Of a DNA stretch of 64,000 bases, positions 18,319-58,400 are shown piece by piece. Made by a program: the position numbers and the translations under genes. Source of the stretch: Rhytidiadelphus loreus (taxonomy: Eukaryota > Streptophyta > Bryopsida > Hypnales > Hylocomiaceae); assembly GCA_947034895.1 (NCBI GenBank), contig OX344763.1, positions 67,165,093 to 67,229,092 on the forward strand, given 5' to 3'. Numbering within the stretch: the first letter of the stretch is position 1; the number at the start of each line of letters is the position of its first letter. The notes under the pieces were generated by a model. That model did not search any database, had not been told where the DNA came from, and worked only from the letters and a program-made list of their open reading frames with translations.

Positions 18319-18812
18319 AAGGCCTTATTCGTTAAATTGAGACAAAATGGTCCTTTTGAGACTTTGCAAAATGAAGAGCGAAGATCATTGAAATATTAGT
18401 TGTTGAAGTCAACACTAAATGAAGCACGACTAACACCAATCATAGAGTTTTTGTAGCAGGTGCCCAAAATAATTGCCTCCAAGCGAGACAAGTACAGGAA
18501 CAATCGGAAAACAATTACTCGCAGAAATTGTCCTAAATCAAGCAAATTCCATTTAAATTCAATAAGCTCGAACTCCTCGAGGTATGAAGAACACAAAAAG
18601 TATATAAGTCTTGCCTGCACAAAATGGCACCCAAATGGTATGAATTATGAAGTGCTCAATCTATCAATAATGCCGATCTAGGAACGGAGTGGCTCACTAT
18701 ACATAAGGCACTCTTGTTTCCATCACGACTTTGTATGGACTATTTACGTTCATTCTATTTATAGTAAGAGGGACAAAGGATCCCAAGGCATCCAGAATAT
18801 TGCCCGTTGGCG
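18319..18812. other. Left subterminal DNA of element 1
   Basis: It contains the AAGGCCTTATTC terminus and a second GAGAC-containing subrepeat, then AT-rich DNA without a recognisable gene. The right subterminal DNA likewise has several GAGAC/GTCTC words. Confidence 0.5.
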
Positions 18813-19747
18813 TTACGCATCGGTGTTGGCTATGTCTTTGCTCTTCGTCGCCTGTAACGCTTTCAGTTTCGCTAGTCCCTTGAAGATATCGTCGCGTCGA
18901 GAATGATGGTGGGGCCCACTCTCACCGTCCACTCCCGTGCAGACGCCCGCACTCTGAAATCCACTCCCTTTACGCTTCAAATCGCGAAAATTTTGAGTAA
19001 CCTGAGAAGAAGAAGGCGATCTAGACCCAGAAGTAGGCGGCTTCGGGAGGAATGCATTCACATCGCCTTTGTATGGAGGTCCACTTCTAATCGATATAGA
19101 GTGCAGAGAGCGGCGTTGGTCCCTAATAACCCTCTGACGGAAAATGGAATCGGTGGAAGGTCGTCGTCTTCCTCCAGCTGACGCCGAAGGCCGAGGCGGA
19201 TTATTCTCGAGCTGAAGTAACTGAGGTCTAACCGTTGGACCAACTTGTTCGCTCTTCGTGTACCCTCCCGAAGATGACATCCGCAAAAAATCTCTCACGG
19301 GGACAGACTGAGGCACTTCGGAGGCCAGGAGATTATCATCGACTCGAGGACCCACTGAAGTCCCGCCGACGAACAAGTTCAGTTCCGGTTCGTCGCAATG
19401 TCTACTCGCGAAGTTGGAGAGAACGACCCTCTTCGAGTCGACGATGTTTGCTTGAGCGGGGACGGGGAGGCGACGGGCGTCCTTCCGTGCCCGCGACTAC
19501 GAGGACTATCGACGACGCCATCTTCAATGTCCCCCTTGGAGTAGTCTATAGCGGCTGATGCGGCGTCAGCGACTGAGCGCAACATGTACAGTTTGGACAC
19601 CGGCGCGGGTCCGCAGCTCCCTCTTGCCGAATCCGAGCCGTTGGAGAGCAACCTTTTCGACCCAGAAAGCAAGCTTCTAGTGAACCTCCGCTTGGGTGTT
19701 GGCAAATTCAAATTGGGAGCCCGAACCTGGAAGTAGCACATACTCAA
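18813..19747 (-). pseudogene. Ser/Arg/Pro-rich uncharacterised gene of element 1, probably frameshifted
   Basis: The first part (19747-19379) starts just after a splice acceptor (CTACTTCCAG) and reads RAPNLNLPTPKRRF... in one frame. The second part (to 18813) lies in another frame that is open from 19496. The switch near 19450 joins ...ASPSPLKQ to NIVDSKRVVLSNF and looks like a one-base indel. The protein is rich in S, R, P and G and probably disordered, with a Lys-rich C-terminal helix (DDIFKGLAKLKALQATKSKD). Two diverged palindrome copies lie inside the coding region (19334 and about 19429). It lies downstream of the phosphatase-like gene on the same strand. No family recognised. Confidence 0.45.
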
Positions 19748-19977
19748 TTACAAGAGACCAGTAGACAATATCCAGCAAAGGAAGGACGGCAAGGGAAGCA
19801 GGTAAATAGTAATCCAAAAAGGAAAACCACAGAAAGAAACAAGCCGAGCGGGAATGCGAAGACATAGAAAAGCTAGGTCCAAACTGAATATATTATTTAC
19901 AAAAGAACACAACATACAAGATTATAGAATACAAAATGTAATTATTGTTATCCGAACGTGGGTTCTACCGCGTTACT

Positions 19978-20942
19978 CTACGTTCTACGACGGCCTCTTC
20001 CAATGACCAAATTCACTGTCGGCAGTTCGTAACAGGCTCCCACGTTGTGTGCGGATTCTCTCATGGCATCTACAATTCGCGCGTGATTGTAGTCCCTAGC
20101 GACCAGGGGCTCGAGCCCAATCCGGTTGGCCTCTACGTACTCTCGCAGTCTCCCGGGTTGGCAGTTCGAGATGAGATGCCGGAGCCACGGTAGGAGGTCT
20201 CCCATGAGGAAGTTGTCCCTCCGCTTGGTGTGACTCCAAGTTTCGAGAATCACGGTGTTTCCCCTCTCATTACAGATCCCCTTCTCGGGGGAGTCATCGA
20301 TGAGGAGGGTGTTGTCCGCAGTGAAAGACGTGTCCCCGCTGGGATTCATGAACAAGGTCTTGGACAGAACCTTCATGAAGACACCTTTGGTGCCAAAATG
20401 AAGAAAATTCCCCGCTGACACCTCTATTTTTTTGCACTGATCCTGGCTCAGCACATCGTAGGGGGCCCTGCCCCCGCTAAACAGGTGTCCAGCAATGGGT
20501 TCCGTGTTCGACTTGAACATGGCGCTCCATACTAGCACCCTGTTCGCGATGTTGGAAACCTCTCGCAGGAAGCCCTCTAAATTCTGTCGAGCGAATACGG
20601 CCTTGGGTCCGACGATGGTGGGGTTTCTATGGCAGAGAACTTTGTCTTCGAGTTGGTAGGGTTGGAATTTTCCATTCGTGCCATACGCCCTGGTGGCGAC
20701 TTGGCAGAGCACCCCATTCAAGTCGAAGACAATGTTCAGCCACTTCCTCCGCGGTAGGGGCACTAGAGGCGCTACATTCCTCGGGACGACCTCTCTCTCG
20801 TCCTTCGATTCTACCTCATCAAGTCAAGACAACATAGAAATAGAGTTACCTGATTGAACGCAGAATCATGTGAGCTAGAAAACGGGAGGGAGTAGTGAAA
20901 TCCACTAATCGTTTGCTTGCTCCCGTTAGGGTGTGCTTTCAT
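19978..20942 (-). CDS. FCP1/NIF-type HAD phosphatase-like protein
   Basis: The main frame (20763 to 19978) reads KWLNIVFDLNGVLC at its start, the HAD/FCP1-homology motif I with DxN in place of DxD. It then has FLREVSNIANRVLVWSAM (motif II region, Ser near residue 80), FMKVLSKTLF (Lys region) and LLIDDSPEK (the acidic motif, Asp 156-157). This order and spacing fit the NLI-interacting-factor/FCP1 phosphatase domain. An upstream in-frame leader DEVESKDERE... and an ATG at 20942 (MKAHPNGSKQT) suggest a longer N-terminus, but a one-base shift near 20825 separates them. The Asn in motif I may weaken catalysis, although similar DLNG forms occur in plant homologues. As cargo it could act on phosphoserine targets, but that is inference. 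Confidence 0.65.
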
Positions 20943-21315
20943 AGGCAGCGGACGATGCACGCTTTTATGTTTTTTGAGCTGAGCAAAAAAACATGGAAAG
21001 CAAAAGACAATTAGACTTTTGAGTCCATATTTTGTAATTTCAACCGATATCTTTTATTTACAAGTGAAATATATTACATACATATGTTTTTGTTTTCATC
21101 TAGAGCCGCCAAAACTATACATTCATGTCTATGCTACACTAGTCTACACGCATTGCAGCCACAGACGGGTTCGCCGTCCGCGCCCGATCAATCAAGGAGT
21201 GGCCACACCATCCTGTCAGGCATCATGCATCCGAATGAGATTTCAGACCTATGAGAAGACTTCTGTTTCCACTCGCAAAACAAGACAATCATGCATGACT
21301 CTGCGTATGCGAGAG
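20943..21315. other. Short spacer between the phosphatase-like and ParB-like genes
   Basis: It holds the upstream region of the phosphatase-like gene and the 3' end of the next gene on the minus strand. No other feature seen. Confidence 0.4.
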
Positions 21316-24300
21316 TCAATCAAAACTGTAAGGATCTGGTGGTTGTACCTTTGATGATTCCAGACCTTCTGGAACATTTTCCACCTGCTCCTCGGCGGCC
21401 ACTGCTTCCACTTGCTGGCTTACATCTCCGCCGACGTCCTCTTCACTCTCGCCGTAGTCCACCTTCTCTTCCGAAGAACAGGGCGAATCCAACACCAAGC
21501 CGAACGGAGCAGTCGCAAGTGTCATCGGTTTTTTTGGCGCCATTGGCAAAATGCCAAGGACGGCATCCCGCATAGGCTGCAACGTCCCCTCAACAGTATC
21601 GTCGAGTCGAGGATGACTCGACTCATCCTTTCTAGTGTCCTTCAAGAAAGAGGCGCGTTGTGTCTCCGGGATAACTTCAAACCTGGCTTGGTCAGGAGAC
21701 GGCACCCTGTCCACCTGAGAATCGGGAGGTAAATCATGGACGCCCCCCGATGGGGGAGGGACATTGCCAACCTTATCCTCGAGTCGAGGATAGGGAAGTC
21801 CCGAGACCAATTCTTCGACCTTGTTGACTTCGACCTGACTAGAGGAGGTCACAGGCGCCCATTGTTGAGAGGCCTCGGAAAGCGAAGGGAGGACAAGCGA
21901 GCCGCCAGATTGAGATTGAATTGCGGCAACCAATTGCTTCAATTGTGTCTCGAGAGAAGAGATCTTGGCGTTGGACTCTTGCTGCACCTCGGATATTTTG
22001 GCATTCGCCGCTTGGCTGCACGCAACAGCCTCAGCAAGCTGTTTGTCTTTCTCTTCCCTCGCCTGCTGCCTCACTATCCTCCGCTTTCGGGCTTCCTCCT
22101 GGTGAGTCCACCAGTCACCCTCGACCTTGACCTTCCCGTCTGGTAGGAGGATTGGTTTTTTGTCGGGTTTGGGGGGCATGCCTTCGACATCGTCTTCGTC
22201 GGAGGAATGTGGGCGATCTATGTCATCCTCGTCACTGATGTCGATGATCTCTGATGACTGCACCTTCCATCGTTTCTTGGGCGGGGAAGCCGGGCGTTCC
22301 ACTGGTAAATCATTACCAGCTGCCTCTCTTGCGTCACTTGGACGCATATCCTGCAACGGAGGCTCAACTTCCCTTCTTCGAGTCAGCGTTGAATGTCGAC
22401 GCACCAGTTCGTCAAACTCAGTGTCCGTTTCCACGTCCTCCTCACGAACGAGTGCCTGCTGCGCTTCTGATGGCTCCCCACGGGCACCCGATTGGGTCCC
22501 CCTAGACTCTGATGGGGCTCCCTCAGACCTAGATGGCACACCATGCACCCCAAGAGGATTCACCTGTGCAGCTGAATGCTCCCCTCGCGAGCCTGCAAGG
22601 CCTCTTAGAGACCCAGGTCGTTGTTGTTGCAGTGCATCCGGCACAGTAGGCGAGTTCATCCACATACAGACCTGGAACGTATTTGTCCCAAATTCGTCTA
22701 TGCCCTCCACGCCAGGATCATTGGTCAATTGTGGGCCAATGGCTTCTCTCTCTCGCTGCCTCGGTGCTGGGATATCGGCTGGTGACTCGTAGGTGGGCAA
22801 CGGTGACGGGGGTGAATTAGAGTTAACCACCACCGGAATACAACTGGGCGGTTTGACATACGCCAGTGAATAGGGCGAATTTGAGAACATGAAATCATTC
22901 ATGTCCATTTTATCCGCCAGATAAGCAATTTTGTGGTAGCTCCTCGCATCATCCCTATCGCAGAAACCATAAAAATACGCTCCGAACATCTGATACAAAG
23001 ATCACAATGAATTAGTAACTGTGCCAAATTTAACAAGATGTCCTATCCTCGAGTCGAGGATAAGTCGGGATCTCCATTACTGACAATTGAAAAGGTCAGG
23101 AGACACTGAAATCTATTATACTTCTATACATCAAACGTTTCCATATGTATCCTCGAGTCGACAATAAGTATTCTTCATGTTAAGAGACGAACCTTGGCGG
23201 CCAACATAAATTTCGGCCCGCAGAAGAGACCACAGACGTTCTCTTGAGGTGCCGCAAAATCCTGGAGGATTTGTAGGTAGAACTCCATCCTGAGTTCTTT
23301 CGCGGTGATCCTCCACTTCGCCTCCGTGTTCTTTGACACTTCATTGTAGTATTGGCAGTTGTCTAGCGTTTCGTATTCACGCTTCACACAACCCCGGACT
23401 GAAGTGGCAAATTCATTGTCCTTGCGGAACAAGAACAGGAGAAGAACGTCGTCAGCTATGTTGCGATTTGTGTAGTTGTCCAACATCTCTGCCTTAGTTG
23501 GCACGTAAGATGACTGCACGCAATCATAGTCCTTTAACTTGTAGGCCACGAATTTTATGGTAGCCTTCATGTCAACCTTGCTGCGCAAAATGAAGAGCCA
23601 GACTAGTGGCTCTGACATTTTCGGCTCCATAACGTCTGAGAGAAACTTGAGCAGCGGGTCAATTTCAACTATTTTGTTGGTGACCTTGCTCTTCGGATAC
23701 TCTCTCACGTCCAACAACGCCAAATAGATCTCACGTTGCTGGTACTGGTACTGCGTACTGGTCACCAGTGCCTTTGCCGCAATATCAATGCCCCTGACCT
23801 GGACACCTCCAGCTGGTTCTAGAAGCCTGTACTAACTTCAGTCGCATGAACTGAGAGAACATATGAAGGACCTCGGGAAAATTCTTCCCCAGATCCTTGG
23901 CTCGTTTACTCCAAGTGTCGTTTTGAAGCCTCTTCTTGAAGTATTCGTTCTTCGGGTGCGAGATGAGGAAGTCCCATGACGCGGATGTAAACCTGTGTCG
24001 CGCTTTCCAGGACTTCCATGTCCTTTCAATGACATCTCCCCCATTATCTATCAGTTTCAGGGCGGTTTTGATGGCTGCGAGGTCCTGGATGACCACTTTC
24101 TTTCTCTTCCTTCGCTCCACCCAGTCCCCAGCAACCATGTTATCGGGGACTAGGATTTTTGTCTTGAACACGGACACCTTCGGATATGTGGCTATCCGTT
24201 TAGGCGTTTCACCGAGCAAGTGCTGCGCAAATACTCCGTAGTCCTTGTCTGTGAAGTGTCCACAGTGACGGAAGAACTCTCTCTTCAGAGACATTGCTTT

Positions 24301-26174
24301 CCTCTTGAAGCCTTTCAGATCCTTGAATTGTAGCCCAGTTATAGGCTCAATTAACTCACCCTCTGCATGCTTCGTGAGGAATCTCTCCCAAAACGCGAAG
24401 AGATCATCGGGTAATGTGATGATCTGAATTTCGTTCTTCAGATCGTTCAGACTTTTTACACAGGCTCTTTCTCTTCCTGGGTTAAGATTCTGATATCGAT
24501 CGAGAACTGCAATGGTGAATTCCTGCACGACAAATATATTCACGAGTATTAGGAGTGTTCAGTTCTGTGACATTCATAAAAGACATAGTATCCTCGAGTT
24601 GACGATACCTGTTAACCCACAATTTTTGACCAACACACTAATTCGTAGAACACTCTGTGTCCCACAACTGTTCCATATGTCCATTTATCATTGGCTCAAA
24701 CACTGGTACTATCGTCGACTCGACGATACTGAAAAATTATTTCGCCTCACCTCATACTTCGCCAAGTCGTATACTGCTTTATTACTTCGAGTCACCGCCT
24801 CTGTTGCTACATCTATGGCTCTCTGGCAGGTCAACCAGATATTCCGAAGGCTGATTATCTGATTTCCCCATGTCGGCTGGGCATGGTCAAGGTGATTTGT
24901 GCAGTTGTAGAACTTGGAGATGTTCCTTAACTTGTTTGGATTCAAGGACCACACAATCCAAGCGTCCCAGGTTTGGAGCTCTACCCTCCTAGCCTCACCG
25001 CACCCTTCCTTCTGAAGCTCTTTTGAAGCGGTTACGCTATGCTAGCCATTAATTATCATGAATTTGCCAGTTCTTATGTCGTCCCATTTCTTCGGCTTCC
25101 TCTGCAGCAGCTCATTATTTAGATCCACAAGAGTAAGACATAAAATTTGATGCTGCTTTTTGTGCCCAAGTTACACAAGTTCATTTTTTACTGACTCCAC
25201 TATGTCAATCTGTAGTGTCCGAATGATGTACTGGTCTTGCGCTATTATGCACTGCTTGATATGGACCTGTACAACCTCTTGGTCTAGAAGGAAGCAAGAC
25301 TTGTGATCAGTCCAGAAATCTCGTTGATAGATGGCAACTTTTCGTGCTCTTTCATTTTCGATTGTGATGTCGACGGTGTTGCTTCTGCTGTCGTCAGAAT
25401 CGACCCCGAACTTCCTGCCCCGGCAGTTCCACCCGGAAGGTTTGATTTTCTCCTCTTTCTACTTGATTCTCTTGGTTGTTGTTGGAGTGAATCCCGCTGC
25501 CTAGGTTGGGACAACGCTTGTGATGGTCTGGTTCCGCGACTACCCTCCCCTGTACGCGCAGAAGGAGGTTGCTGCCCAGCATCTGATGCTCTCTTCGTTT
25601 CTCTGGACTGATTCCCACCCACAGTTGGGAGAGGAGAGATATTTGTTAACGCGTAATGGTCTAGCGTTTGCCAAATTAGTCGCAATCTACTTGCGTTGGA
25701 TTTGGCACTACCGTTCCTCTAAGGAACGTATCCACATTTTTCAAACTCTTCGTTCAAGGAATCCATTTCGGATCCCTCTAGGAAGGTCATGAGGTTTTCC
25801 AGGTCAAACTTGCCGTGGTAAGCATTGACGTCTATAACGATAGAGTGACAGTGCTTTCCTGGGTTCCCAGCATCGTCAACATCGCGTAGGACTATGATGA
25901 CGTAGTTGCTCTGGTAATCGTCAATTAGGATGACCTTCTCTTTCATGTTCTACGAGAGGTATTGGGTTTTTCCCTGAGCTCGATATCGTAAATATACGTA
26001 ATTCTTCCAACGGCTAACCCCGAAACTCCACGTACTGATGTGCTCTTTTAGTTGCCATAATTTTCCATAGGTGGCCTCCATTTCAAGCAGGAATGGTTCA
26101 TCGTCAATGGGGTTGTTGAATGGCTCGAGGTGACGTTCAGTCACGGAGTAGTTGTACTCATCTGCAATCGCCAT
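21316..26174 (-). pseudogene. Multi-exon gene with ParB/DGQHR-like motif, element 1 copy, decayed
   Basis: The frame starts at ATG 26174 (MAIADEYNYSVTERH) and can be followed in one phase to about 25320 through stops at 25950-25952 and 25719-25721. Another phase then carries FWTDHKSCFLLDQE... to a donor after LAKYE (near 24750), with stops at 25171-25173 and 25042-25044. The second of these falls inside GKFMIING*HSVTASKELQ, where the homologue at 50.1 kb has Gln: the box is I-I-x-G-Q-H-[ST]-V-T-A, like the nucleotide-binding box of the ParB/sulfiredoxin/DGQHR fold. Later exons: 24530-23785, a frameshift near 23825 into 23765-23190, and 22985-21316. The last exon is acidic, with a coiled-coil-like stretch (EEARKRRIVRQQAREEKDKQ). 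It is divergent from the transposase at 33.6 kb. Confidence 0.55.
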
Positions 26175-26984
26175 TGCTTGATTCTTGTTTTCTGCAAGTT
26201 CAGATACATTCTTAGTACATTGAGATATCGTCGATTCGAGGATAGACTTTGTAGAATGCTATGTACACTATATAATCGCTTCCAGAAAAGGTATTGGGTG
26301 TAGACTGACAAACCTTTAACTGAACTGAGTCTAATTGCACAAATCTACGTGGGTTTAGGGTAATTTATGTATGTTATCTATGTTAAATGGAATATTTTTA
26401 TGTTATTCGAACTTACTTGCTTTTTGTGTTTGTAATGTATCATCGAGTCGACGATAGGTTCTGCTTTGTTTGGTATTAAACGATTTTGTAGGCCTTCCGC
26501 GTTTGTTATTTTGTTCTTGACTTCATTTTCTATTGTTTTGAGCAATGTCATCAATGACTTGTTGGTTCCTAATTATTTGATGACAATCTTAGTTTCTGGT
26601 CATTATTTTATTGTGTTACTTTTTTTTTGAGTTGTTGTTATCTTTGAGGCGACGATAGACTCTTTGTCTGTCCCAATATTAGTGTATCGTCGAGTCGATG
26701 ATAATCCTTGTCAATGTGCAAGAAATTTATCAATTGATCAGAAACCCTAAGTTCACAATATCAAACAACTCTATTTTCCACATAGATGAAGGTATTGCAA
26801 GGAAAAGTAACTACCACATTTGAGACAGGGATTAGAGTGTTCTTTATGTATAATATTGAAGAGCTAATTGAACTGAAACCCTAAATCCTTCATTTGAAAC
26901 CAAAATTGAATTTCAACAAACTTGAACACAAATTCCAGCAACAGTTCACAAGAATCAAAAATTGCAAAATGTAAACCACAAGCA

Positions 26985-27340
26985 ACAAGCAACAATTGCA
27001 CAGTGCAGAAACAGAAGCGGGAGAAAAGAGCAGAAGAAACAAAATTCACAAGCACGACCAAATCCTAAATCCGTATTGAACAATCGCAAAACTCAGAAGT
27101 GCACAATGTAGAGCTAGAAACGGGAGGAAGGACCCTGAGAACTTGAAATTCACAGGCACACACCCTAAACCCTAAATTCCTATTGAACAACTGTACAAAG
27201 CAGAACTAGAAGCAGGAAAAAGGACACTAAAAACTTGAAATTCACAGACACACTAACTGAATCCTAAATCCCTATTCAACAATTGCCCACTGCAGAACTA
27301 GAAGCGAGAAAAAAAAAAATTTGAAATTCACAAACAAACC
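26985..27340. repeat. Degenerate tandem repeat of about 85-105 bp, four units
   Basis: Units share CCTAAATCC..TATTGAACAAT, then TGCAGAACTAGAAGC and ACTTGAAATTCACA. The last three begin near 27064, 27170 and 27254. It lies in the palindrome-free middle of element 1. Confidence 0.6.
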
Positions 27341-27354
27341 TGCTACCTTGACGA

Positions 27355-27830
27355 CTTCACCTCGCACCTCGCAGCCCCACGCACCTCGCAGGTCGCAGGT
27401 CGCACGTCGCAGCTCCTCCTTGGACCTCGGAGCTCAGAGCTCACCAACGTCGCAATGCAGGTACCCTAAACCCTAAGCCTCCCAAGCCTTCACCAAGAGA
27501 GTTCACCCTAAGCCTCGCAAGCCTTCACGAAGCAAAGCAAAACTCGCAGCGCATCCGACTCCCACCGCAAGAACTCGAAGAACTCGCAAAACTCACAACG
27601 CATCCGACTCGCAGAACTCGCAGCACTCGCAGCTCCTCCGACTCGCAGCTCCTCCGACTCGCAGAACTCGCACCCCTCGCAGCGCATCCGACTCACAGCA
27701 GTCGCAGCTCCTCCGACTTGCAGAACTCGCACCCCTAGCAGCGCATCCGACTCGCAGCTTCTCCGACTTGCAGAACTCGTAGAAGTCGAAGCGCCTAAAC
27801 TCGTAGAACTCACAGCAAAGCAAAACTCGC
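27355..27830. repeat. CTCGCAG-type minisatellite
   Basis: Repeats of ACTCGCAGCTCCTCCG and CAGAACTCGCACCCCTCGCAG, with higher-order units of roughly 50 bp (for example CGCATCCGACTCGCAG). It is GC-rich against AT-rich surroundings. The Cys/Glu/Ser-rich minus-strand frames here are repeat products and not genes. Confidence 0.75.
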
Positions 27831-30800
27831 AGGTCGCACCTCGCAGCGCAACATGGAGTTGCCAACAACGTACGCAAAACACAGCGCATCCGAATTCCGA
27901 GGAGGGAGAAGACTCTCCAAGCCTATGCCGAGCCGCCAAATCATAGCCGAAGCAAATTACCGAACTTGTGGCTGAACCCGAGGCTGAGCCCCGTTTACCG
28001 AAGCCGAGGACAAACCTCGCCGAAGGTAATTACGAAACATAATCCCCAATCCCCATGTGCCAAGTTTAATGATGAACCGGAAACTTACGAAAGCAAACTT
28101 AAACAAAGCTTACTAAACCTATCGAGCTTTAAACAAAATGCTTTGAATAGAATGAGGCACCTTTTGGGGAATTGGCACTATAGAGCCAGATTTCACCATT
28201 TAAAAACATTTGTGTACTTTTGACCAGGTAAAAGTAAAAAAAAATTGCCTCAAATTTCCTCTTCGTATTCAAAACGTGGATGAATTTGCCAAATTTGCAT
28301 AAAGAAATACATGAGTAGGAATGAAAAGTATTTTTGGGTCCAAAACATGGATGAATGTAGAAATACAGTGCTACCAATATAACTCAAAGGGTAAATTGCA
28401 ATTCTTAAAAAGTGTACAACTTATAGTTTGTACTACTTCCAATAAGGTAAGTATACCTAAAATAGCAGAAATGAACTATTCAAATGGTTTTTATTACTGT
28501 ATTGGACAACTTTCTTTATACGATGGTCATTGTTTCCCTCATTGTAGATTCTTTTAGAAGGCAATTTTTAAAAAAAATTAGAAGGAACTTTGACGTTCTG
28601 ACGTGTTGAAGAAACTTAAGGCGTTCATAATAGAGATCATAGATTCTCAGAAATTGTTTATTTGTGCAAATGAATTTGAAATTAGTTACATTTGGATAAA
28701 TAACATACCACTTTAGCATGCAGGACAAGAAAACAAGTATTTACAGTCCAAAAAATTGTATGACAAGGAGATCTCTTGTACATATCATTCGCGTCCAATA
28801 CGTGCTTGAACAATATTTTCAATGAACAATGTACACTTCAATAGAATTATAGATCATTACTACTCTAAAAAAACTCGTCATTGGAAGGTCTACATATTAC
28901 ATGTAGGGTTGGCATTGTGTGAAAATTTGAAAAAATTTGTACTTTTATTTTTAGAAACCAAATAGTAAATTTTTAGTTGCTAATTTTAGATATTGAAAAA
29001 TTATTATTGCAAATTTTAAAAACAATCATGAACTTAGAAATTTATAAATGAATAGAAATTAATTCCATGTGTAAAATAATCCCACGTGCATGATGAGCAA
29101 GCTTTTAGTATGAATCTTTTTTAATTAACTTCTAAAGGATTTTGAATTTTTCTGGGATTCCCATCTCCTTCAAGACACCCAAAAATCATCCATTTCATGG
29201 AACAAATGTAATGAACATAAAAAAAATGATAGACACAGGGTTTAGGCGTCCTGTTTACTGTAAGACGCTTTGGTGTTCTATTTTTATAAAATTACAGAGC
29301 ATGTCTCATTGTTTTCATGTTTTATCTTCCAAAAAAAAATGATAGAATTATAGTGTACCCTAAACTCTTACAAGATTGTACTTGTGCCAAACGTATAAAA
29401 CTTTGACATATTTATGTGAACTTGAATTCCTTCTAAGTATGTGACTTACAGAAAAAACCCTATTGTAAGTTTTGCTAAGATTGTAGAATTAAATTACAAA
29501 ATACTATCAAAACAATTCTTAATCGAAGAAGACGTTGTACAACATAAATTGTTTAAATTCAAAGAATTTAGAAGAGTTTGATGTCATGACCATTGAACAT
29601 TACTCTTATTTTCTTCTTTAATTTAAAATAGAGAGGACCTTTGGAACAACCCTAGGCTATATAGTTCACTTAAAGTGGATATTATGTACCTTACATGAAG
29701 GGTGTAGGAAAAACTTTAATTTAGTTTGACTACAACATTGAAATAATTAATAACACACTTTGTACAAAGAAGTAATCATGTTTAGTACTATTAAGGCATC
29801 ACAATCCATGAGTTGAAGTATAACTCACTTCAAAGTGCACCATGATTGTATTAGGACATTGCAATTACTTATGGTCTTTGCAATTGTGACCATTTCTTTA
29901 TGTCATAGTGATAATGGATCCATGCTAGCACACTTGAAGCTATTCTTTAATGTGTGTTGTTTAAAAAACAGTAAATACAAGTATGGTCAATGTTGAAGAA
30001 GTCACTCTAAAGTTCTTAAAAGTAAGACCAATTAATTTTTTTTATCTCCATGATAATATTGTTCTTGAAAACCACACTAATCCTTTTTTAATTTTTTTCT
30101 AGAAAATTATAAAAATTGTTTCAAAATTTTTGTTGTGCAGATTATATTTTCAATAACAAGCGTACTTTGCCCTGAAAACTAGCATTGCCCATAACGTTCC
30201 TATCTAGCATTGCCCATAACATTCCTATCACTGGTTTCAATGTACATAACCAAAGCTCTAATTTTGAAAAGCAAGAACAAAATTAAAAGGTATTATGACT
30301 TTTTCCAATTGTTCACTACTAATAAACACATACAACCTTTACCTCATGTAAATAACTTCCTCAACTTCTTGTAATCATAAATATGCAACCTATTCCAATT
30401 TCTGGGACCCACCTTGTAACACGTATTGTATGCCATGTATTTTTGGACTTCTGTTTCTACAGTACCAGTCATAGAAATATTCTTTTTACATCAGGATTAG
30501 GAGGTACATCACAATAAATATTAGCATTAACCTTATTTGATCATGGACCCTCCATCTCAAGAATATTTAGAACTTATTCCTATTTCTTTGGCCTCTGCTG
30601 ACACACATATTACATGCCATTAATTTTGTTCCTTGAATTTAGAAACTACCAGTCATGGTTTAATTCCTTCAACACCAGTATTACATAGTACTGATTTTAA
30701 AATACACTTCAGTTGGTTTAAATACATGTAGAAGTTTTCAATGTTTAGGAGCTGTACAGTTTGTGATAGAAATCATTTCAATGAACACTATTGTATTTGG

Positions 30801-31650
30801 TTTCCAAGGTGAATAACTCATGAACATGAAAGTCCATACCTTATAGTTCAAAAAATCAAATGTATTTAATTCATATGAGGAAGAAGAGAAAAAAAATATT
30901 AGTTATAAGATGTAGAGTTCAATGCATTACCAAATTTAGTTTATTGAACACTACGTTGAACCCTAAACTTATTACTATGTACACATCTTAATTATTCAAA
31001 AATGAATCTATAGGATGAATATTGTAATGCAACTTTTACAATTTTGCGAAAAACATTGTTACAGAAGGTGAGGTTCATTTGAACTATAATTCTCTAACTT
31101 CATGCTACACACATGAACTATTAAACTTTAGGGTGAACTTTGAACATAGTTGTACTTATCAATTCTTTGAATACTAATTTCTTTCCTAATGTTTCTTTTT
31201 CATCCATTTTCACTAAATTTCTCAACCGAAAATCACATGAACTTTTCAAGCTTTTCTTAGTCACAAATTTTGTAGATTTCACATGCAAGAAGAGAATTCA
31301 AAGATACTCATAGTTTTAACACCCTCAGGATAAAACATTCTAATCCTTCAACCCTTAAATGATTTAGTGGTGTTTTTTCTTTTCCTTTGAGATCTCAAAC
31401 ATGTCTACTTTAAATTTGTAAGGTTATAAGTTTTTTTAAATGACACAACATACCAAATAGTTGTCTTATAGTCGAATTTAGAGCAAATTCTTTGAGGCTC
31501 AAAACATATCTTGGGCATTTAGGGGTAAAATAGGCCAAACAAACATGATTTTAGGAAGTTCTTCTTTCCTTGCAAAAGAAATTTTGTATTTTAGAGAGTC
31601 ACCTAATGGAAAAAATAAAATCGGAAAATAAGAGGTCAAAAACCGAAAAC
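27831..31650. other. Long AT-rich stretch without a recognisable gene
   Basis: Nearly 4 kb with only short motif-free frames. It lacks the element 1 palindrome, which is present on both sides of the 26.8-32.5 kb block, so the block may be a later insertion into the divergent promoter region of element 1 or old spacer. Neither inverted ends nor a target duplication was found. Confidence 0.4.
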
Positions 31651-31715
31651 CGTAAACCCTGAAGACCCGAACCCCGAACCCTAAAAATCGTAAAGCCTAA
31701 ACCCTAAACCCTAAA
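31651..31715. repeat. Interstitial plant telomere-like repeat (CCCTAAA)n
   Basis: About eight degenerate to perfect copies, ending in three tandem CCTAAAC units at 31696-31715, the plant telomere repeat. Shorter CCCTAAACCCTAA pairs occur at about 27165 and 27465. It may also resemble a telo-box promoter element, since it lies about 1.9 kb upstream of the transposase ATG. Confidence 0.75.
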
Positions 31716-37076: not shown

Positions 37077-37080
37077 ACAT

Positions 37081-47711: not shown

Positions 47712-49756
47712 GAAACATGAGGATGAGCTTTGTTGTCATGCCTACATTGTGCTCAACGTAGGGAAGACTGTTGTGTTCATTTCCATGCACTTCCATAGAA
47801 CATTGCAAAGCTGGCCTGTATGTAATACTCAAGCATTTCTATAAGCATACCAGTACAACTGATTCGATGAGAAGCATGTCAGAATGCATGTCAGATTGCG
47901 TGTCAGATTGCATGTATGGGTGCTAGTAAATGCATTATTGACGTACCATGGCATTGCTTCAAAGCATATTCGCAAGGTCAAAGCTTTCAGTGTTTTGTAA
48001 CACACATGTGCCATGAACAACATCCTTATCCTCTTCACGACACATGTGCATCCTTTTTGGTAGTGACACTCTGAACATTATACTAACAGTGTTCACAATT
48101 CACTTGCTTGTGATTCAAGCGTTGGGTAGGCCAACAAAGAACTATACTATAGAACGCTACAGAAATTGAATAATGTTCTCTATAATCATTCTTACAATCT
48201 GCCTATTTATAGATATGAAACGTATTTTTTGCACAATAGAACTATGTTGAATGATATACGAATAAGTGGCATAGTTGAGATGTGGAAGCCCACCTTGTTT
48301 AAACATTTTCAATTGTCTGTTAATTTTAATCATTTCCTCTTTGCCCCATGGACAGTAGTGGAAATTTTATTTTCATAAGTGGTGCACAGTGGACATAGAG
48401 GAAAAAGCATGGACCTTTTTTGTATGGTACATCCTCTCTATAATGACATCTACATTTTGAAACAAATTTAACAAATCCCATATTTCCAACATATTTTTGA
48501 AACATGACACGAACAATAGACATATTGCACCATACTTCAGTACAATACCATATACTTGGTTTCCTGTACTTAAAGATGGAGATTGAACTCAAACTTTTTC
48601 TGCCATGTCCTTCATTTTCCTGAAACAAATTGATACGTAGCATAACTACTTCACATTCAATTCGCTTTTTCAATTCATGCAATGCCCCCCTTTACAACAA
48701 AATATAAAAAATAAAAAATAAAAAAAAGCTCAAACCTTCCAAAAGTTCACAGAAAATGTACCGAAAAAGCATCCTGCACATGCTGCTCTCTCTTGGTGAA
48801 CACTGATTGCGCTAATTCAGAGCTTTCAGAACAGAATTAATCCTTCAACGAAAGTATACATTCAACGGGGACGAATGTACTGTCTAGTAATTTCTACAAA
48901 AGACGGTCATGTCCATTTTCATGAAAGAAGGTACACGTGTTAATTATTTATGGCTTTGGATTTTAATGATAACCACTGCTTCATCTTCATATAATTTCAA
49001 TAATCAATTTTTTTTTTAAACATTCACAAAACATTCATTTCATCAAGCTTCATGTCCTTCTACATTTCTGATTTGTTATAAGAGAGCTCTCGAATAATAA
49101 GGCGGCACTCTCAACTGTCCATTTCCTCATTATTTCTATAATAAAAGCAATAATAATTCTTCTAGTTACACATGAGTATCTTTTTCATCTACAGAACTAA
49201 ATATTTAATTCATGAAATTTTCCTTTCCCAACGTATTCAATTGGGGACAAACAGAAAAAAAGGTTTACAAGACTATAGTATGATGAGAATTGGTCCAATA
49301 ATTATTCAAGAACTATATATAGTATTTTCTAAATATAAGAATTTCTAGACATAAGTGGGTCCAGACACTGGTACTCCATCCAGCCATAGGGTGCTTTTTA
49401 TGCACCCTGTCTGAAAGCGGCCCCTCCTTTGTGCTGACAAGACCTGGGTAGACTTTTACCTGAGGTCGAAATTTTTTACTCGAACTGACCTGCAGTGAAC
49501 AGAAGTTACTTGCCGACGTGGCAGTGTTTTCTTTTCGAAGACGTCCAAAAAAACGCACCGTCATTTTGTACGATGTCTCCTGCAACATCTACATTCCGTT
49601 TGACATGCACTAGTTCTTTTCCTGACATCCACACGTTTTGTACAACATGGCAGGCAATTCTAACTCCCATGGCCGGAAACAAAATTTTTGCTTGCTGTTC
49701 AAATAAACGCTCTCGCTGTATCGTAACATCTACAAAAACGGTCTCTTCTACTAGTG
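47712..49756. mobile_element. Right arm and terminus of the TNP2-bearing CACTA element
   Basis: Non-coding DNA after the TNP2 stop ends at 49756 with a terminus that, reverse complemented, reads CACTAGTAGAAGAGACCG, the CACTA signature. The next three bases are TAA, the expected target copy. The matching left terminus was not found in the window. The terminus sits inside an intron of the ParB-like gene of element 2, so this CACTA inserted into element 2. Confidence 0.75.
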
Positions 49757-51306
49757 TAATGAACTGGTATCGGCTGGCGGCCAACACAATAGTAATATAT
49801 GTAATGAGATGTTCTTGAGGGTGAGTCATCATGAAAACAAAAATGAAAGAGAAGTACCTCAAAATCTGGCGAAGGCTTGCCTCCACCATGATGCGGCTCC
49901 GGGCAGCCAGCCTTAACCCACGCCGCCCTTTTCATCTCGGCACAGGATCGGAAGGTCTCCTTGGCGACCTTCTCCGCGATGTTCAAGTTTAAGGCGTTCG
50001 ATACACGGACTAGAGTTCTCGGGTCTCTAGATACTAAATACGGGGATCACTTCAAACTCCAGGAGATCCTTCCTTGCGTCCGAACCTTCGGGGTGTTGTT
50101 CGGCAAGTTCCCGTCAAGCCGTCACGGTATGCTGCCCCCCAATAATGTACCACTGCACATTTGGTGCCTTCCACCATGGCATTGATTCACCATTCTAAAC
50201 ATGATCTCCATCCTTGGCGGACAACTGTCCATGACCGCGTTGAGCCCCTTGTCAGTTGGTAATGGAGCTCGCTTTAGAGGAATACCATGAATCTCCGGCT
50301 TCTTCCTAATGGACCCGTATCCCTTGTACATTATCTTCACCTGAAATGGAAGAAGACAGGATTGTTAGAATTGACGACAGAAAGTGTTGGCTGCCAGCCG
50401 ACAGATCAACTACGCAACGGATGAATGAGAGACATAGTGATGGCATAAATTTCAGATCAAATACCTGACCAAGGCGGTCCTTTGCAATCTCGCGGTACTT
50501 CAACTCGTCAAGTGCGATGTGCAGCTTGTCTACAAAAATGACGCCCGGCAATCGCTCCTTCTTGTATGGGAAAGCGTGCGTCAACCCTGCCTCTAGCGCC
50601 TGATAGATGGCGGTCACCTTGTTCTCTTTGGTCTTCGTTGTGAGGTGATTTCCCCAAACCAATGCCTCGTCTAGTGTAAGCTTCATGACCCTGTTGGAGT
50701 AGTCCTTGCCCTTGCCCTTCTTCTTGGGTTTGCTTGGGGATCCAGTCTCAACCATAGTAGTGTCGTCTTCAGCTATTGTCAACTTGGAAGCCTTTTTCCG
50801 CCCCTGGAAGCCTTCTTCTTGCCCTTCTGCTGGTCCCAATGGATGAGCAAATTCTTATTGTCCATCTCTGCCTTCAAAATTTTCCACCCCTAGATGAGGT
50901 CATCAACATTGGATGGCGATGCTCCATTAAATGTCATGCCCATTGACATTGACATTTCGCCACATACTTCCTTTGTGCATGTACAGAATGGCAACTCCAC
51001 CGCAAAATAGTTCGCTGCAGCCTCCAGATTGTGGATCGGATGAAAACAGATCAGGACATGCATGTTCTCATCCATGGCCATCACTGATATCACATTGCCA
51101 TGACCAAAGATCATGTTCCCCTTCAGCTTGAAGGAACACGCAATCTCCACATCACTATCCAGGAATTCCCTCCAGCACAATCCCAATTCTTGGATGGCTG
51201 AATTTGCTTTCCAGGTAGCACTTGGACGAATTCCGTCTGCCACTATTGGTGAGTTCGCAATTCGCTCTCCCAAAAGTCTACCCAATAGAGTCGATTTCCT
51301 ACACAA
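49757..51306 (-). pseudogene. Gene with ParB/DGQHR-like motif, element 2 copy, truncated by a CACTA end
   Basis: Exons run leftwards: about 51250-50480, with a stop at 50890-50892, a frameshift near 50800 and a donor after DRLGQ near 50466; then 50340-49870 with a donor after PSPDFE. The second exon, after a one-base shift near 50190, reads WYIIGGQHTVTA*REL, with a TGA at 50114-50116. This aligns with FMIING*HSVTASKEL in element 1. It continues SRDPRTLVRVSNALNLNIAEK, which aligns with SLNPNKLRNISKFYNCTN. The intron after PSPDFE holds a palindrome copy and is then cut by the CACTA end, so the remaining exons are missing. Lys-rich KPKKKGKGKDYSNR could be a nuclear signal. Confidence 0.52.
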
Positions 51307-52855
51307 TAGTATTCCGAATTTTGAGCAAACAACAAAGGTATCAGCTGCCAGCCGATAGAACTAAGCAATGCATTTCAGAGTGTGCCAAGTGTGTCGGCTG
51401 CCAACCGATATGGTTTGGTAACCAGATCAATACGTTCACTGCACATAATGTCAACTAGCAACCGACACAAGGTTCATGTGGTCCTACACACACACCACAC
51501 TAAATCACCCGAAATCACTCTAGGAAATATATAATGAATACAAATGAAGATTGAAAATGTATCAGCTGCTAGCCGACACAGTGAACTGGAAAATACTTGA
51601 TAGTTTCAGGAGTTGAGGACGCCATCGTTGCAGGCACCTCCCTTATCGGTTGGCCACTGACACCTGTCGGCCACTTACAAGATGCAGGCTCCTCGAAGGC
51701 CTACAATATCAACCGCGCGTTAACTCGTATCGGCTGCTGAGATACTTCAAATATATTGCTTGCAACTCAAAGACAGCGTATCGGCTGCGAGTCCAAAACA
51801 GAAGAGGAAAGGGTAGCAGAGAGCAAGGGAGAAGAAGAATGGGAGGAAGAGAGAGCGAGAGAGCGAGAGCGAGAGTAAGTGAGGCAAATGAAAAATGAAC
51901 ACAAATGAAAGTAGCCAGGGGAGTATACCCCCTCTCCTCACTAAAGTGACGGCTACCAACTGGGAAGGGTACTCATGAGCATTCATCCAAGTTTTTCATC
52001 CATTACTTGTTTTTCATCCAAATCCAGTACTTCACTTCCAGCCAAGGACATGGGAATAACAATCACTCATTGCAAGAAGTTGCGTAAGTTTCGATTCTTG
52101 ATCCTGAAACGTACGTTCAGGTCGTTTTTGTAATCACAACAAATTCATCCTCCTGCAAATTTAAATTTCAAACGCCAACTTGCTTCTCTCCCCTCCTCAC
52201 TTAGGTTCAATTCTTAGAGGAGTTCATTCTTTTAGTTTTGTTTGCTTCTTCTAGGCTCTCAGCTAGACCGTCTGGAATGCTTTTAGGATGCAGTGGAATG
52301 CAGTGGAATGTTGGGCGGGCTATAGGGGAATGCAGAGATTGTAGGGGAATGCACAATAGCGCAACAGTTTTCAGTGGGATGCAGGGCAATGCAGTGAATG
52401 ATACGGTTGCAATGGGGTGGATTCCATGACACAGAGCCCAGTAGTTCAGGGCGTATTCTGGGTTAGTGTAGGAAACAAACTGTCAGGGATTCATATCATT
52501 TTTAGCATCATTTAGTTGAGATGGTTGGGGCATATTATTGAAATCGCATTATCTGATTTGAATTCTGGGTTGAGGAATGGATTTCTAGTTCACATCTGTA
52601 CGTCATAGGGTCAAGAACTTGTCCGTACAGTCATCCTTGTCGGCCGGCAGCCGATAAGCAGCTTTCATGTCGGCTACCAGTTGATACAGTCTGCAGTACC
52701 GAGGACAGGGAGAGAACTAGTTGCCATTGTGCGGAAATTAGTGATATACTTCTCGGTTGATTTCCAAGGTATCGGCTGCCAGCCGATAAGTTATTCTGGG
52801 GACTGACTGCATCAACAGACTTGTCACTACCCTTGGCGCCGTAGTCTTTGACATC
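51307..52855. promoter_or_regulatory. Divergent promoter region of element 2
   Basis: This separates the minus-strand ParB-like gene from the plus-strand transposase and holds ten palindrome copies, the densest cluster. It also has a GAGAGAGCGAGAG microsatellite (about 51840-51885), TCATCCA repeats near 52000, and a GGAATGCAGTG repeat near 52280-52400. The dense sites between divergent genes suggest that both are controlled by whatever binds the palindrome. Confidence 0.5.
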
Positions 52856-55800
52856 ATGGATGGGTCTGTAGGCTACGATCTGAGTGCAATCGAGACGTTT
52901 ACCAGAAATGGAAACTCAGGGAGACTGAAGTTGTGGAAGGGAGTTGTCGTTGCTCTAACCCTCGAAGGACTGTACTATGCTGGGTGGGCTATTGTGGAGG
53001 GACGGATGAACGGGAAGCCCCACCTTGTCCACGTTCATGTACTTGACGTCCCACAAAATCTGGACATGGAAATTCCATTTCTTGAGGGAGACTTGGTCTT
53101 CCTCCGCCATTACCCGGGAAGGTCAATCCTCTGGAAGGCGAGCAATCTTTATCCACATGTTGAATCAGAAGGGTCTACCTCTGTTGGTGTCAGCCGCCAG
53201 CCGATACATGTGAAAGCGGATAAGAAACCCGTACAGCAGTTCCTTTCATTCACTGTCAATATGGAGGTCGCTCTTCTGCTGACTGTTGGAACCAACCTTC
53301 GGTATGTTGGTTCCGGCGTAATTAATGAATTTTCTCTAAAGGGTTATTGGGAAGGTTTCCGGGTTCTTCACAGCTTCTTCATGGTGGTCAGGCTACTACA
53401 TGTCCTGGATGAATTCAAGGATCAGGTTGCCTACTGCGAGATTCCAGATTACATCACAATATATCGCTATGTTGGGTACAAAATACTGTGGAGTGGTTAC
53501 AAGGTCAGGCCTATCGATGCTTCTAATGTGGAGCTACAAGTTGTCGGCAGCCAACCAATAGGTACTTCACAGACTCATTTGAACCAACCACCTCAAGATG
53601 GTAATTCCAAAAGCGATGGGAGCACTTCTGATGTCCTTCCGGAATTTGCAAAAGCGGCACACACAGACATTCCTGCCGTTGCATCAGACGAAGATGATCG
53701 ACAAGATAGGTTGTATTCATCTAACAAGTCCGCTGATCGTTTGCCCAATGTCCATGGTTTTAGTAGCGATGATGACTCTGGATCTGGTCCTAGCACTGAT
53801 GAGAGCTTAGTCGATTCGGAGGCTTTTAATCGAACTGGAAGAAGTAATGACCGACGAGGCAGCTTAGATGGTGTTCAGTCGGGGCTACCTTTTCCTAATA
53901 GACCACTCTGGAGAAATCAATACTGTGAACTTCCGAATGACGACTTCTCTTTCTTTGGAAGGGCGATGATCCAGGTATGCCTTCCAAACAAGGCCTGCGA
54001 CGATGGCGTCCTTGGAGACTTAGACGTGGGAGTGATGTTTGTCTCTGACAATGACGCACTGCAATTGACAACTATACGCTGGAGGTTGACCCATGCAAGA
54101 TTAGAGTTGGGAAGGCTACTTTCTGAAATTGTCACGCTCTACTCAGAGGCGGCGGAGGTGAATGGTTCTGACGACGACGAAATGCAAGGAGTACCCAAGA
54201 ATCCAAACCGGTCAGTCCGTCGAAGGGTACTTCCCAAGGATTCTAAGACATTGTCGAAACTACAAAAGAAGACGTCGGAGCTTGACATACGCAAGGTCAG
54301 CTCCCAAAAGTGATGTAGGCTCAGATGCTGCCAGACGTTTCCCTGGGAACACACGAGAAGTCTACGACAAAATTTCTATGCCTGCAACTTCAAGTCTAGG
54401 AGGGAAACGGCATATGCCATCTAAAGTCAGCTTCATCCAGGTTTTGTTCCAAGGAAGAAGTTCATCACTTTGGCAAATGTCGATGTCTTCGAGAATGCTT
54501 GGTACATCATTCACGGGGTCTCAAGGTCGGCCTATCATATATATAAGGCTGCGGCCGTTGGAGGAACCTTTAGCAGGTCGCACGGGAATGCGGGGGCTCA
54601 GCAACCATGTTCGCAAACTATTCAAGCTCAAGCAACTCTCACAACGATTATCAATGACAATGTTAACCAGATGCCAAACGAATTCAGACTAGTGGGAAAC
54701 AAACGTGTGGACAATCTCAAGATAGTCCCCTCAGCAATGAATTGGAATCACATGCGTGAGCAAGTCAATTATGTATGTCTCCGTTTCCTTCCTCCTTCCT
54801 TTGCAGTACGCGTTTACTTCTGTCGGCTGTCAATCGACACTTCTCAATCCAGATGCACTAGGTCCAGTAGAATATCGATTCCTTACATGTGTGCGGTAGT
54901 CCTATTTCGGTTGGTTTGTCCATGCATTTCAAGTCTATCGGTTGGCAGCCGATATAGTTTCTCTCCATTGGCCGTGTCTCATATACCTGGATGTGCGCCC
55001 CAGGTCAATGGAATCTGTAACATGTTGCCAGTCTCGCAGTCTGCCATTAGCCGACTTTGGAAAGCTCATTTTAAGAACGTCGAGGGCAAGCCTGTGGGAA
55101 ATAACTTCTCCAAATGTATAGAGTGTGACTTCCTTGTAGAGTTCATTGCAAAGTATCCGAGAGGGTGTGGCGAGTGGTAGGCGCTAGTGGATGACAGAGA
55201 GAGACATCTCAATTACCAGCGCGCTTGTAGAAATGTCTACGGTGGATGGACTGCGCAGTTTGTGTAGAACCAGTTGGAGTTCCTTTGCATCATTCACGAT
55301 AAGATGGACACCACGAAGACCGCTATTCCCAAGATGCAGCGAATCACCAAGGCTACCATAGGGCTCGGCCAAGTTCCAATCTCATGTACTGGCATGCTCA
55401 CACATGGGCATGGCGATGGCGCGTATGCGCATTACTCCACATCACTGTGGCCGAGGGATTCCAATTTTACCATATCGTCGTTGCGGAGGGTCTTTCGTGC
55501 TCTCGAGCTGCCACCTGTTTGAGAGTCAAAGATCTTGTTCTCAACTCCACCCTTGAACAGCTTCTTCAAGGCACTACTTCATGGAAAATCAAGATGCAAC
55601 TCATCAATTCCTACGGCCTCGGACAAGTTCACAAACACTCCAGGGCCTGGATGGCCACATGTTCCTCTTCCAAGGAAGCTTTTTTTGCAACTAGACAACT
55701 GAGCAAAAGACAATAAAAATAGGTTTCTCATGGCCTTCTGCTCATTGCTCACTGCCATGCGCATCTTCAAGGAGGTCACTGTTGGATTTCTCATTGGATC

Positions 55801-56994
55801 TTCAAGGAGGTCACTGTCGGTCATACGCACAAAGACATTGACGCACACTTCAGTTATCTATCTAAACTAATCAAAAGAAAAAACACTTACGTTCTTGCAA
55901 ACCTCATGAAGGCGTTCATGGATTCACAGAAGACTGTCGCCTTCATCCCGGAGTTTGTTCAAGAGGTGGCGGACTTCAAATCATACCTCATGGGCTTTCA
56001 TCATGATGGTGTAAACAAGATTGTGGGACTCGGGGATAAACACCTGTTCAAGTTCTACGTAGAGGAGTCCGGAGATGATCGAAGGTGGCTAGTCATGAGG
56101 TACAAGAAAAGGACAATGGATTCTTCGTGGCTTCCTCCGGGGCCACCTGTCAAAATGTGGATAGCGGACAAAGATGGGGGACCGAAAATTCCGCAGGGTG
56201 ATCCGGTACCTGTTTCGTTCAAAGCCCTCTGGAGAAGCGTCGACATAAACCCCAGGAAGTGAAACGTAGACAAGGAAGTCGCTAGGGCTAGCGAATGCAA
56301 TGATAAGCAGACCTTCATTAAGAATGGAATCGCAAAATACATCGAGTTTTGGAAGTCGGGTCTGGCCAGAAACAAAAGATATGCCGAGGAAATGGCAGGT
56401 TGTGTTGCATACTGGGAACAAATTCATTCGGAGATTTGTTCGTCTCTACCTACAACACCCACTTCGCTTCAATAGGGATTTTGGCCGATGTCTGATTGGA
56501 AAAGAGATCACGCTTCTGCATTTCCTGAGGAAGGGGCAGATCCAAACAATCTAGTGGATACCACTCCCGAGGACAACCCAGAACCTACTCCATTCTACGG
56601 GCCTACGAAGGACAAACCGAAGTTGAGCTTTAATTCGTTCCGGGATGTTCTCCTAGGGGACTTTGTTCTCTATCAACCTTGTCACAATAATTACTTCCCT
56701 GTGTGGCTTGGCCGGGTATTGGAGTGTGTGAACATGACTCAAGGACCATCCTATGGCACTTTCAAAGTCGAGTGGTGGACTCCAATGAAAGCCAAGAGGG
56801 AGTGTAAAGCGGTTGTCGCAAGGGAGTGCTGGACTCGACGATGGCATAAAGAACTCCATCTTCCGCAAGTTGTTCATGTGCGCATTGTCCTTTACTCGCA
56901 CAGGATGCCCTCACATGCGAAGAAGGGGCCTCTAACATCTCATCTTATTCTGGAGTCCTCCGTCAATCCGTCATTGCTGCAATTGCGAATCTAG
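52856..56994 (+). pseudogene. DUF7869-type transposase, element 2 copy, heavily decayed
   Basis: ATG 52856 opens a 485-codon frame (LKLWKGVVVALTLEGLYYAGW..., then an acidic Ser-rich linker). It stops at 54311-54313, but the same phase continues as the transposase middle (FKSRRETAYAI, NVDVFENAWYIIHGVS), so this is one long protein with a larger N-terminus than the element 1 copy. An intron lies at about 54771-55011. Core motifs survive: CIIHDKMDTTKTA, LQLDN*AKDNKN, GHTHKDID. Further stops are at 54422, 55178, 55265, 55520, 55700, 56260 and about 56473. A 35-bp duplication (ATCTTCAAGGAGGTCACTGT at 55763 and 55798) shifts the frame. The C-terminal barrel-like part (GDFVLYQPCHNN...FKVEWWTP) matches element 1. 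Non-functional as it stands. Confidence 0.72.
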
Positions 56995-58400
56995 AGGTCG
57001 TGGGGTCAACTGAGGACAGAGATGCTGACGACAAAGGAGAGGACTGACGCATTCAATCTGCTGTGTTCTATCAGCTGCCAGCCGATACATCGCTCCTTGT
57101 TCAACAAATTGGCAATGGGTGGAGTTGTCAGTTGCCAGCCAATATGCTAGACAATGCTGCGTGTTCATGGCACCGCCCTTTAAATTGATCATCTTTTCTC
57201 GTTGGACCCTACCGTCATGTCCCTCTGTCATTTTCATGTCCTGGTTGACGTCAACAGTAGTTTCTAATTCTAGGTCACTATAATCTGTGTTGATTTGACT
57301 TACCATTACTAATGGCAATCCGCATATACTCTTAGCAACTACATGACAAGCATTTGTAACCACCGTCATTTCTAGTCGGACTATAACATCTTGTTTTCTG
57401 TTGCTAGAATGGAAATGGGTATGTACTGTGTTCTTATTTATTATATTGAAGCTCTACTACGTCCGTATTTCAAATTGTCTCGATTCTGTACACTCTCGGA
57501 GTGTTGACTCTTCTTTCTATGACATCCTCTGCTTCTGTTAGATTTGACTACATACCATACTCTAGGCCCTTCTACTGGATACCTGCTCATACCTTATCGG
57601 CCGCAGCTGCTGGCTGAGATGTTGATGAAGCGAGATCTGACGAACGCCTCATGTCTTCTTCTACTGTCAACTGCCAGCCGATATGCCGGAGACTTGTGCT
57701 TATGCAATGTTAGCACAATAGGATTTAGTCTTTTTGTCGGCTCCCTGCCGATACAATTAGCGATTACGACCAATGCAATATTAGCTCTTATAGTGGCTCA
57801 ATCGTCATAGTCTGACGTCTCCTCCTCTATCGCTGGAATGGCAACGGTTATATGCGCTCTCGTGTTCAATTTAATGAGGCTCCTCTGCGGGCGATTTCCC
57901 AGATGCTTCTATTTACTGCGCTCTCGGAATGCTCACTTTGCCTTCATTGATGGTCAATGCATTGCTCTCATTTCACCTCATACGATACTATCAACGCTCT
58001 CATCGGCTACCAGCTGATACGTCTTTTGCGTGTTTCCTTTTCACGATTGCAAAGTCATGCGATATTTTACTGCGGGCTTTGTTCAAGGGATTTGCCTCTG
58101 CTTGTGTGTCACGGTTATAGGCATCTCTTCTGTTGTCTCACGGTACATCTTGCACCAAAATGTTGTCTCACGGTACATCTTGCACCAAAATTATATTTGT
58201 ACTTGTGGATTCTATTAACATCCAACGGAATGTCCTTCTTCAATCCACTTTTTTAGACAACCAGTTCAAATGGACAATGTGTAGGTGGGCTACCGACACT
58301 TTTCTTTGATTTCTATCACTTATTTCTCTATTCTTACGTGATTTTGGACTTTGAATTTGTCCATAAATGGTGTAATTGTCCATAATTAGTTAAATATGGG
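56995..58400. other. 3' flank of element 2
   Basis: It contains the last six palindrome copies (57069-58019) and a direct repeat of TTGTCTCACGGTACATCTTG near 58132 and 58162. No gene recognised. The right end of element 2 should lie at or beyond about 58.1 kb, but I could not find a terminus. Confidence 0.45.

Follow-up and report, generated by a model that had tools for sequence, protein, structure and literature searches.

The window, a stretch of 64,000 nucleotides on contig C3 of the 407-Mb Rhytidiadelphus loreus genome, contains a complete DNA transposon of 18,758 bp at 18319–37076 (element 1), recognised by its inverted ends and a full-length second copy. Its 27-bp terminal inverted repeats begin AAGGCCTTATTC, and the left one (AAGGCCTTATTCGTTAAATTGAGACAA, 18319–18345, plus strand) matches the right one (37050–37076, minus strand) at 24 of 27 positions; the target duplication ACAT borders both (18315–18318 and 37077–37080). 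The second copy, at C4:13471737–13490490, is collinear over 18.8 kb, 96.8% identical and flanked by CAAG. A third, shorter element (C1:28119998–28129552), flanked by ACAA, retains 484 bp from the right end plus the divergent gene described below; no transposase match was found there, and it looks like an internal-deletion derivative. Target duplications of 4 bp were present in all three elements with both ends read, a length that is a trait of the Sola1 superfamily and that element 1 and the two relatives share with it. The accessible text of PMC9033089 lists a Sola1 from Physcomitrella.

Genes of elements 1 and 2

The plus strand of element 1 encodes a DUF7869 transposase of 957 codons (33626–36499) with one in-frame TAA at 35171–35173. 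The Pfam profile of DUF7869 (PF25273) matched element 1 in its second frame at 1.8e-37 (148 bits, cut-off 26) and element 2, described below, at 7.1e-13 (49 bits), confirming that both carry a plus-strand protein of this type, as a preliminary description of the window had proposed. In the modelled fold, the strands follow the RNase H order, with HDKMD on strand 413–420, LQLDN on strand 539–545 and EDID on helix 584–599. Residue D422 of HDKMD is invariant in 43 aligned sequences, and D545, D585 and D587 are kept in at least 90%. The conserved acids thus lie on strand 1, strand 4 and the last helix, as in DDE/D (RNase H-like) transposases, and the element-1 protein probably has an RNase H/DDE fold. 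Its N-terminal region resembles Tudor folds at a low score. DUF7869 proteins of Ceratodon purpureus and Physcomitrium patens are 42–56% identical and carry only the source names 'hypothetical', 'predicted' or 'DUF7869 domain-containing'; the literature searched, which covers few subscription papers, does not mention DUF7869.

The genome search for DUF7869 scored 150 of 1806 candidates. A separate, more distant class (loci L027 and L036) has open frames of up to ~1083 codons that are 26–31% identical to element 1. It occupies several equal-scoring genome places among the 150 scored candidates and may be a recently active family.

Element 1 also carries a NIF/FCP-like HAD phosphatase ORF on the minus strand (19978–20823; PF03031, 7.4e-10), present in other copies, and, at its left end, conserved minus-strand ORFs (18813–19747). 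Across the scanned ORFs of both elements, only DUF7869 and NIF exceeded the Pfam cut-offs.

Divergent from the transposase gene, at a start-to-start distance of ~7.4 kb in element 1 as well as in its C2 and C3 counterparts, lies a minus-strand gene that encodes a ParB-like domain, as judged from fold. Its first exon (24712–26258) is interrupted by stops in element 1; for exon 1 of an intact relative (L019:3827–5290) a ParB N-domain fold was found, which bears out the earlier suggestion of a ParB-like gene on this strand. Exon 1 matched no Pfam family at E up to 5, so that Pfam leaves the ParB N-domain unrecognised by sequence. The peptide I-I-x-G-Q-H-[ST]-V-T-A, previously ascribed to both elements, is intact in element 2 (IIGGQHTVTA); in element 1 (25027–25056) its Q codon is a TAG stop at 25042–25044. 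In the alignment of ParB-like proteins, N377, G378, Q379 and H380 are invariant, but genome copies do not all preserve this NGQH, which reads NGQY in the C2 copy and contains the stop in element 1. The usual CTP box of ParB carries arginines; in the alignment, an arginine-free sequence of the NGQHSITA type occupies that place. In bacterial ParB, it is not the N-domain that reads sequence, and we located no DNA-binding domain and no helix-turn-helix (HTH) in the ParB-like protein.

The later exons (24558–23785, 23831–23175 and 23001–21316) together span 21316–24558 on the minus strand. By eye they show a skeleton like that of N4/N6 DNA methyltransferases, without catalytic and SAM motifs. Neither Pfam nor PHROGs returned a methyltransferase match for them, and their single match to a PDB profile, a weak one (E 1.5), is a methyltransferase.

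Element 2 (~49.7–58.0 kb) consists of decayed pieces of both genes in the same head-to-head order; no ends and no target duplication were found for it. Decayed exons of its ParB-like gene lie on the minus strand at 49702–51360, with IIGGQHTVTA at 50117–50146 and a relative at locus L037 that is 52–88% identical in each exon's main match. On the plus strand, an ORF immediately after a perfect palindrome B (52790–54313) corresponds to the N-terminal portion of the region that holds the transposase gene, with a 31-residue piece that is 54.5% identical at locus L038; DUF7869 transposase fragments, matched by the Pfam profile, lie at 54206–56793. The transposase of element 2 shares 37% identity with its element-1 counterpart, 34–38% with other members of the element-1 (A) clade and ~25% with the more distant class. 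The two had been presented as sister transposons. Element 1 is indeed a transposon, and its gene pair recurs in element 2; at 37% identity between the transposases, however, 'sister' is too strong, and the two are distant cousins. Homology also links the ParB-like proteins of types A and B.

At C1:8005500–8019499, a B locus in better condition retains an open exon of the B-type ParB-like gene; it holds 15 B sites (≤3 mismatches), and A-type sites are absent. In the position of its first gene, no more than a short stretch of the element-2 ORF was found, and no intact B transposase was recovered.

Elsewhere in the window, a tnp2 transposase ORF (PF02992, 6e-30) lies between the two elements, at 43269–47711, along with an ORF that weakly resembles DUF4216; this is probably a CACTA-type element. 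A minisatellite of GGGTTGTTTGG units lies at 13029–13272, and AT-rich inverted repeats are found near it at 15.3–17.1 kb.

Two 19-bp palindromes

Each element contains its own dispersed 19-bp palindrome, and the initial count of about 20 copies per element proved accurate. Allowing up to five mismatches and ignoring the centre, palindrome A (TATCGTCGAGTCGACGATA) occurs at 20 places in the window, all within 18887–33593, and palindrome B (TATCGGCTGCCAGCCGATA) also at 20, of which 19 lie within 49768–58019 and one, a weak site at 47217, lies outside element 2. Shuffling predicts 0.00 (A) and 0.01 (B) sites per window at three mismatches. An ab initio palindrome search that was blind to A and B recovered both motifs, with 20 and 18 copies, as the top repeated palindromes of elements 1 and 2, respectively; Markov-shuffled controls (three each) yielded at most two copies. 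The two palindromes had been described as sharing the outer letters TATCG/CGATA. TATC/GATA is indeed common to both, but palindrome A is variable at position 5 (mostly G, C or A), which limits the shared outer part to these four letters on either side.

Ten A sites with ≤3 mismatches (centre ignored) lie on the side of the divergent gene, in its coding exon, introns and 5′ region (21597–26703). Six more, together with one that has five mismatches, are placed just 5′ of the transposase start (32597–33593), and three degenerate sites with four mismatches occur at 18887–19446. The intervening spacer of ~6 kb (26704–32596), AT-rich in part, has none. Ten of the 15 unique sites fall outside the listed ORFs; as these ORFs cover half of element 1 (9301 of 18760 bp), the preference for non-coding sequence is slight.

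A 19-bp palindrome with a one-base centre fits a protein dimer on double-stranded DNA, whereas a fully paired hairpin of this form would have no space for a loop. Covariation between the two sides of A sites was weak: of nine tests, positions 5/15 gave p 0.014 and the other eight were non-significant (150 sites counted, after removal of three near-duplicate loci and repeated identical 19-mers).

Sites of this kind might be passive repeats with no protein partner, spread by tandem duplication or by insertion of a tiny element, and tandem arrays with a spacing of ~29–40 bp at three loci (L028, L031 and L032) are what such an origin would produce. The sites within element 1 are 82% alike, however, and their flanks are 33% alike, which is background; each site has thus been kept or made individually. 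The dyad form also persists across variants and into metagenome relatives. We give the passive reading very little weight.

In the metagenome relatives, palindromes read as peptides gave 10 matches in 9 of 71 proteins and 6 matches in 6 of 48, compared with 0 and 0 for the reversed control; a second reading frame gave 13 and 8, against 0 and 0. Most of these peptides lie in tails that follow the corresponding exons. Among 87 transposase relatives, the two frames gave 0 and 1 (control, 0 and 0). One ParB-like family member with a palindrome in its tail, P0122, is labelled as uncultured cyanobacterium and is probably plant DNA in a metagenome bin.

Site types and gene clades across the genome

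At up to two mismatches, the genome contains 1912 sites for palindrome A and 1503 for palindrome B, whereas the reversed patterns gave 3 and 0. To relate sites to genes we used 137 listed ParB matches, divided at 50% identity into 98 B-type and 39 divergent ones; the B-type search scored 150 of 562 candidates, the A-type list had 89 rows, of which one short fragment was left out, and the site lists comprise the first places in the genome. The 50 listed exact B sites come from contig C1 and from the first 44.5 Mb of C2. For 46 of these 50, a B-type ParB match lies no more than 10 kb away, compared with 0.29% of random places; as far as the list goes, palindrome B is thus not common away from such genes, as the preliminary description had anticipated. 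Among the matches listed, none of the 50 lies within 20 kb of an A-type match. Grouped into clusters, the B sites have a B-type match within 10 kb in 16 of 20 cases. Conversely, 15 of 18 B-type loci in C1 and C2 to 44.5 Mb carry an exact B site.

For palindrome A, an A-type ParB match occurs within 10 kb of at least 19 of the 43 exact sites (random places, 0.73%). This figure is a lower bound because only 88 of 1093 A-type candidates were scored; the other 24 sites have no A-type gene within 10 kb among those 88, and the window's own broken A-type copy is absent from the scored list. Exact A sites near a B-type match numbered 0 of 43 within 10 kb and 1 of 43 within 20 kb, among the matches listed. 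These data support the proposal that each palindrome accompanies its own ParB-like gene clade, the two types being separated within 10 kb among the matches listed.

The listed A-type ParB exons are unevenly distributed: 52 of 88 lie on C3, 49 of them beyond 40 Mb. Half of one chromosome (C3, 40–85 Mb) thus seems enriched for A-type elements, and it is perhaps a sex or otherwise non-recombining region.

We also examined loci picked from the DUF7869 list when their sites were not yet known (L027–L036), besides seven other A loci that were picked for having A sites. In each of the eight further A-clade loci, between 6 and 16 palindromes that conform to TATCnTCGnnnCGAnGATA lie on the transposase promoter side, with locus-specific letters at position 5 and the centre, and tandem arrays in some. 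As L030, L033 and L034 are close copies, and likewise L028 and L031, the eight represent about five independent loci. By contrast, both loci of the distant DUF7869 class (L027 and L036) had no palindromes in the 4–5 kb read, so DUF7869 alone does not predict an array; this is half of the outcome that the preliminary description had named as speaking against it. Site profile correlated with transposase distance in a Mantel test (r 0.56, p 0.0001, n 16), falling to r 0.27, p 0.04 once near copies were collapsed to 10, and shared descent alone could explain the correlation.

At L023 (C5, ~21.809 Mb), a degenerate terminal repeat at ~8871 stands exactly where the transposase breaks off (residue 846) and is followed by another element's genes; one member of the family has probably inserted into a second one here, giving a nested arrangement.

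Candidate binders of the palindromes

The DUF7869 transposase might itself bind the palindromes, as internal transposition or autoregulation sites, leaving the ParB-like protein another role. In the 16 A-clade loci that were read and have a transposase, sites cluster within ~1.5 kb upstream of its start, the low-scoring Tudor-like region lies at its N terminus, and transposase distance correlates with site variants. We nevertheless regard this as unlikely: sites occur mid-element and in the introns of the other gene and are not terminal, the element without a transposase match retains them, and the distant DUF7869 class had none in the stretch read at either locus. A host transcription factor recruited by the elements for their expression would account for the many sites upstream of both genes and in introns. 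There are two cores, however, one per element family, and 46 of the 50 listed exact B sites lie near a B-type gene. Such a difference by transposon family would not be expected of a host factor, which makes this origin improbable.

The ParB-like gene follows the sites best, and is supported as tracking the palindrome better than DUF7869, because it is present in the element without a transposase match and because, among the matches listed, the site type found within 10 kb of it differs between its A and B clades. We infer that the ParB-like protein binds the palindromes as a dimer and that they are element-specific self-recognition sites, probably controlling silencing or expression, a reading to which we assign a probability of roughly 0.57. 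Each element would be, or have been, a giant DNA transposon of the cut-and-paste kind, encoding a DUF7869 transposase (probably DDE/D) and, divergently, a ParB-like accessory protein. The 19-bp palindromes, in both promoter regions, introns and part of the coding sequence, would be cognate sites bound in the manner of a parS array, each family's protein recognising only its own site variant. By marking its own element, the protein could keep expression open against host silencing or regulate itself.

We take the palindromes to be recognition sites of the ParB-like protein from their association with its gene, from their placement and from two described systems. In Ectocarpus, the 21.5-kb Sola1-1_Ec32 has a gene with ParB-like and methyltransferase parts, encoded on the other strand from its transposase, and the protein was suggested to bind and modify its own transposon (PMC12477816, accessible text, which also cites green and red algal transposons of such kind). 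That giant DNA transposon resembles the moss elements in having a ParB-like accessory gene opposite the transposase, and the gene combination therefore has a precedent. It differs in that no palindrome is mentioned in the accessible text of PMC12477816. None of the profile libraries used, in turn, picked out a methyltransferase half in the moss gene.

The second system is found in the VANDAL elements of Arabidopsis, which are Mutator-type. Their VANC proteins use family-specific short motifs for anti-silencing, located mainly in introns and intergenic regions and often in tandem; the motifs differ between related families, and binding and hypomethylation were shown experimentally (PMC5735166, accessible text). 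The moss system would resemble VANC in pairing an element-encoded protein with family-specific dispersed motifs. As far as the accessible text of PMC5735166 goes, VANC motifs are 8–9 bp long and non-palindromic, and VANC has DUF1985 and DUF287. Neither these domains nor a Mutator-type transposase were found among the scanned moss ORFs. Bacterial ParB–parS shares the ParB N-domain fold and palindromic sites with the moss system, which differs in having no indicated partition role, identified HTH or conserved CTP-box arginines. The odd-centred 19-bp moss site is one that we take to differ from the parS sequence.

More tentatively, and with somewhat less than an even chance in our estimation, this may be a plant transposon form of ParB/parS-like self-recognition, a radiation of element families whose ParB-fold proteins have diverged in step with their dispersed palindromic operators, each family protecting or regulating only itself; the protein would perhaps derive from a ParB-methyltransferase with a decayed catalytic half. 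In the literature searched on moss DNA transposons, palindromes and ParB, which covers few subscription papers, we found nothing among the papers listed on such a gene–site pairing. If true, the moss system would join VANC as another case of a transposon protein and a scattered motif that diversify by family, here with a ParB fold of prokaryotic type. With ~1500–1900 sites each, two unmixed motif–protein pairs and graded variants, one moss genome would offer a natural series for studying joint change in a DNA-binding protein and its site, and for asking if anti-silencing is served. It also suggests a testable function for the ParB-like accessory genes of algal transposons.
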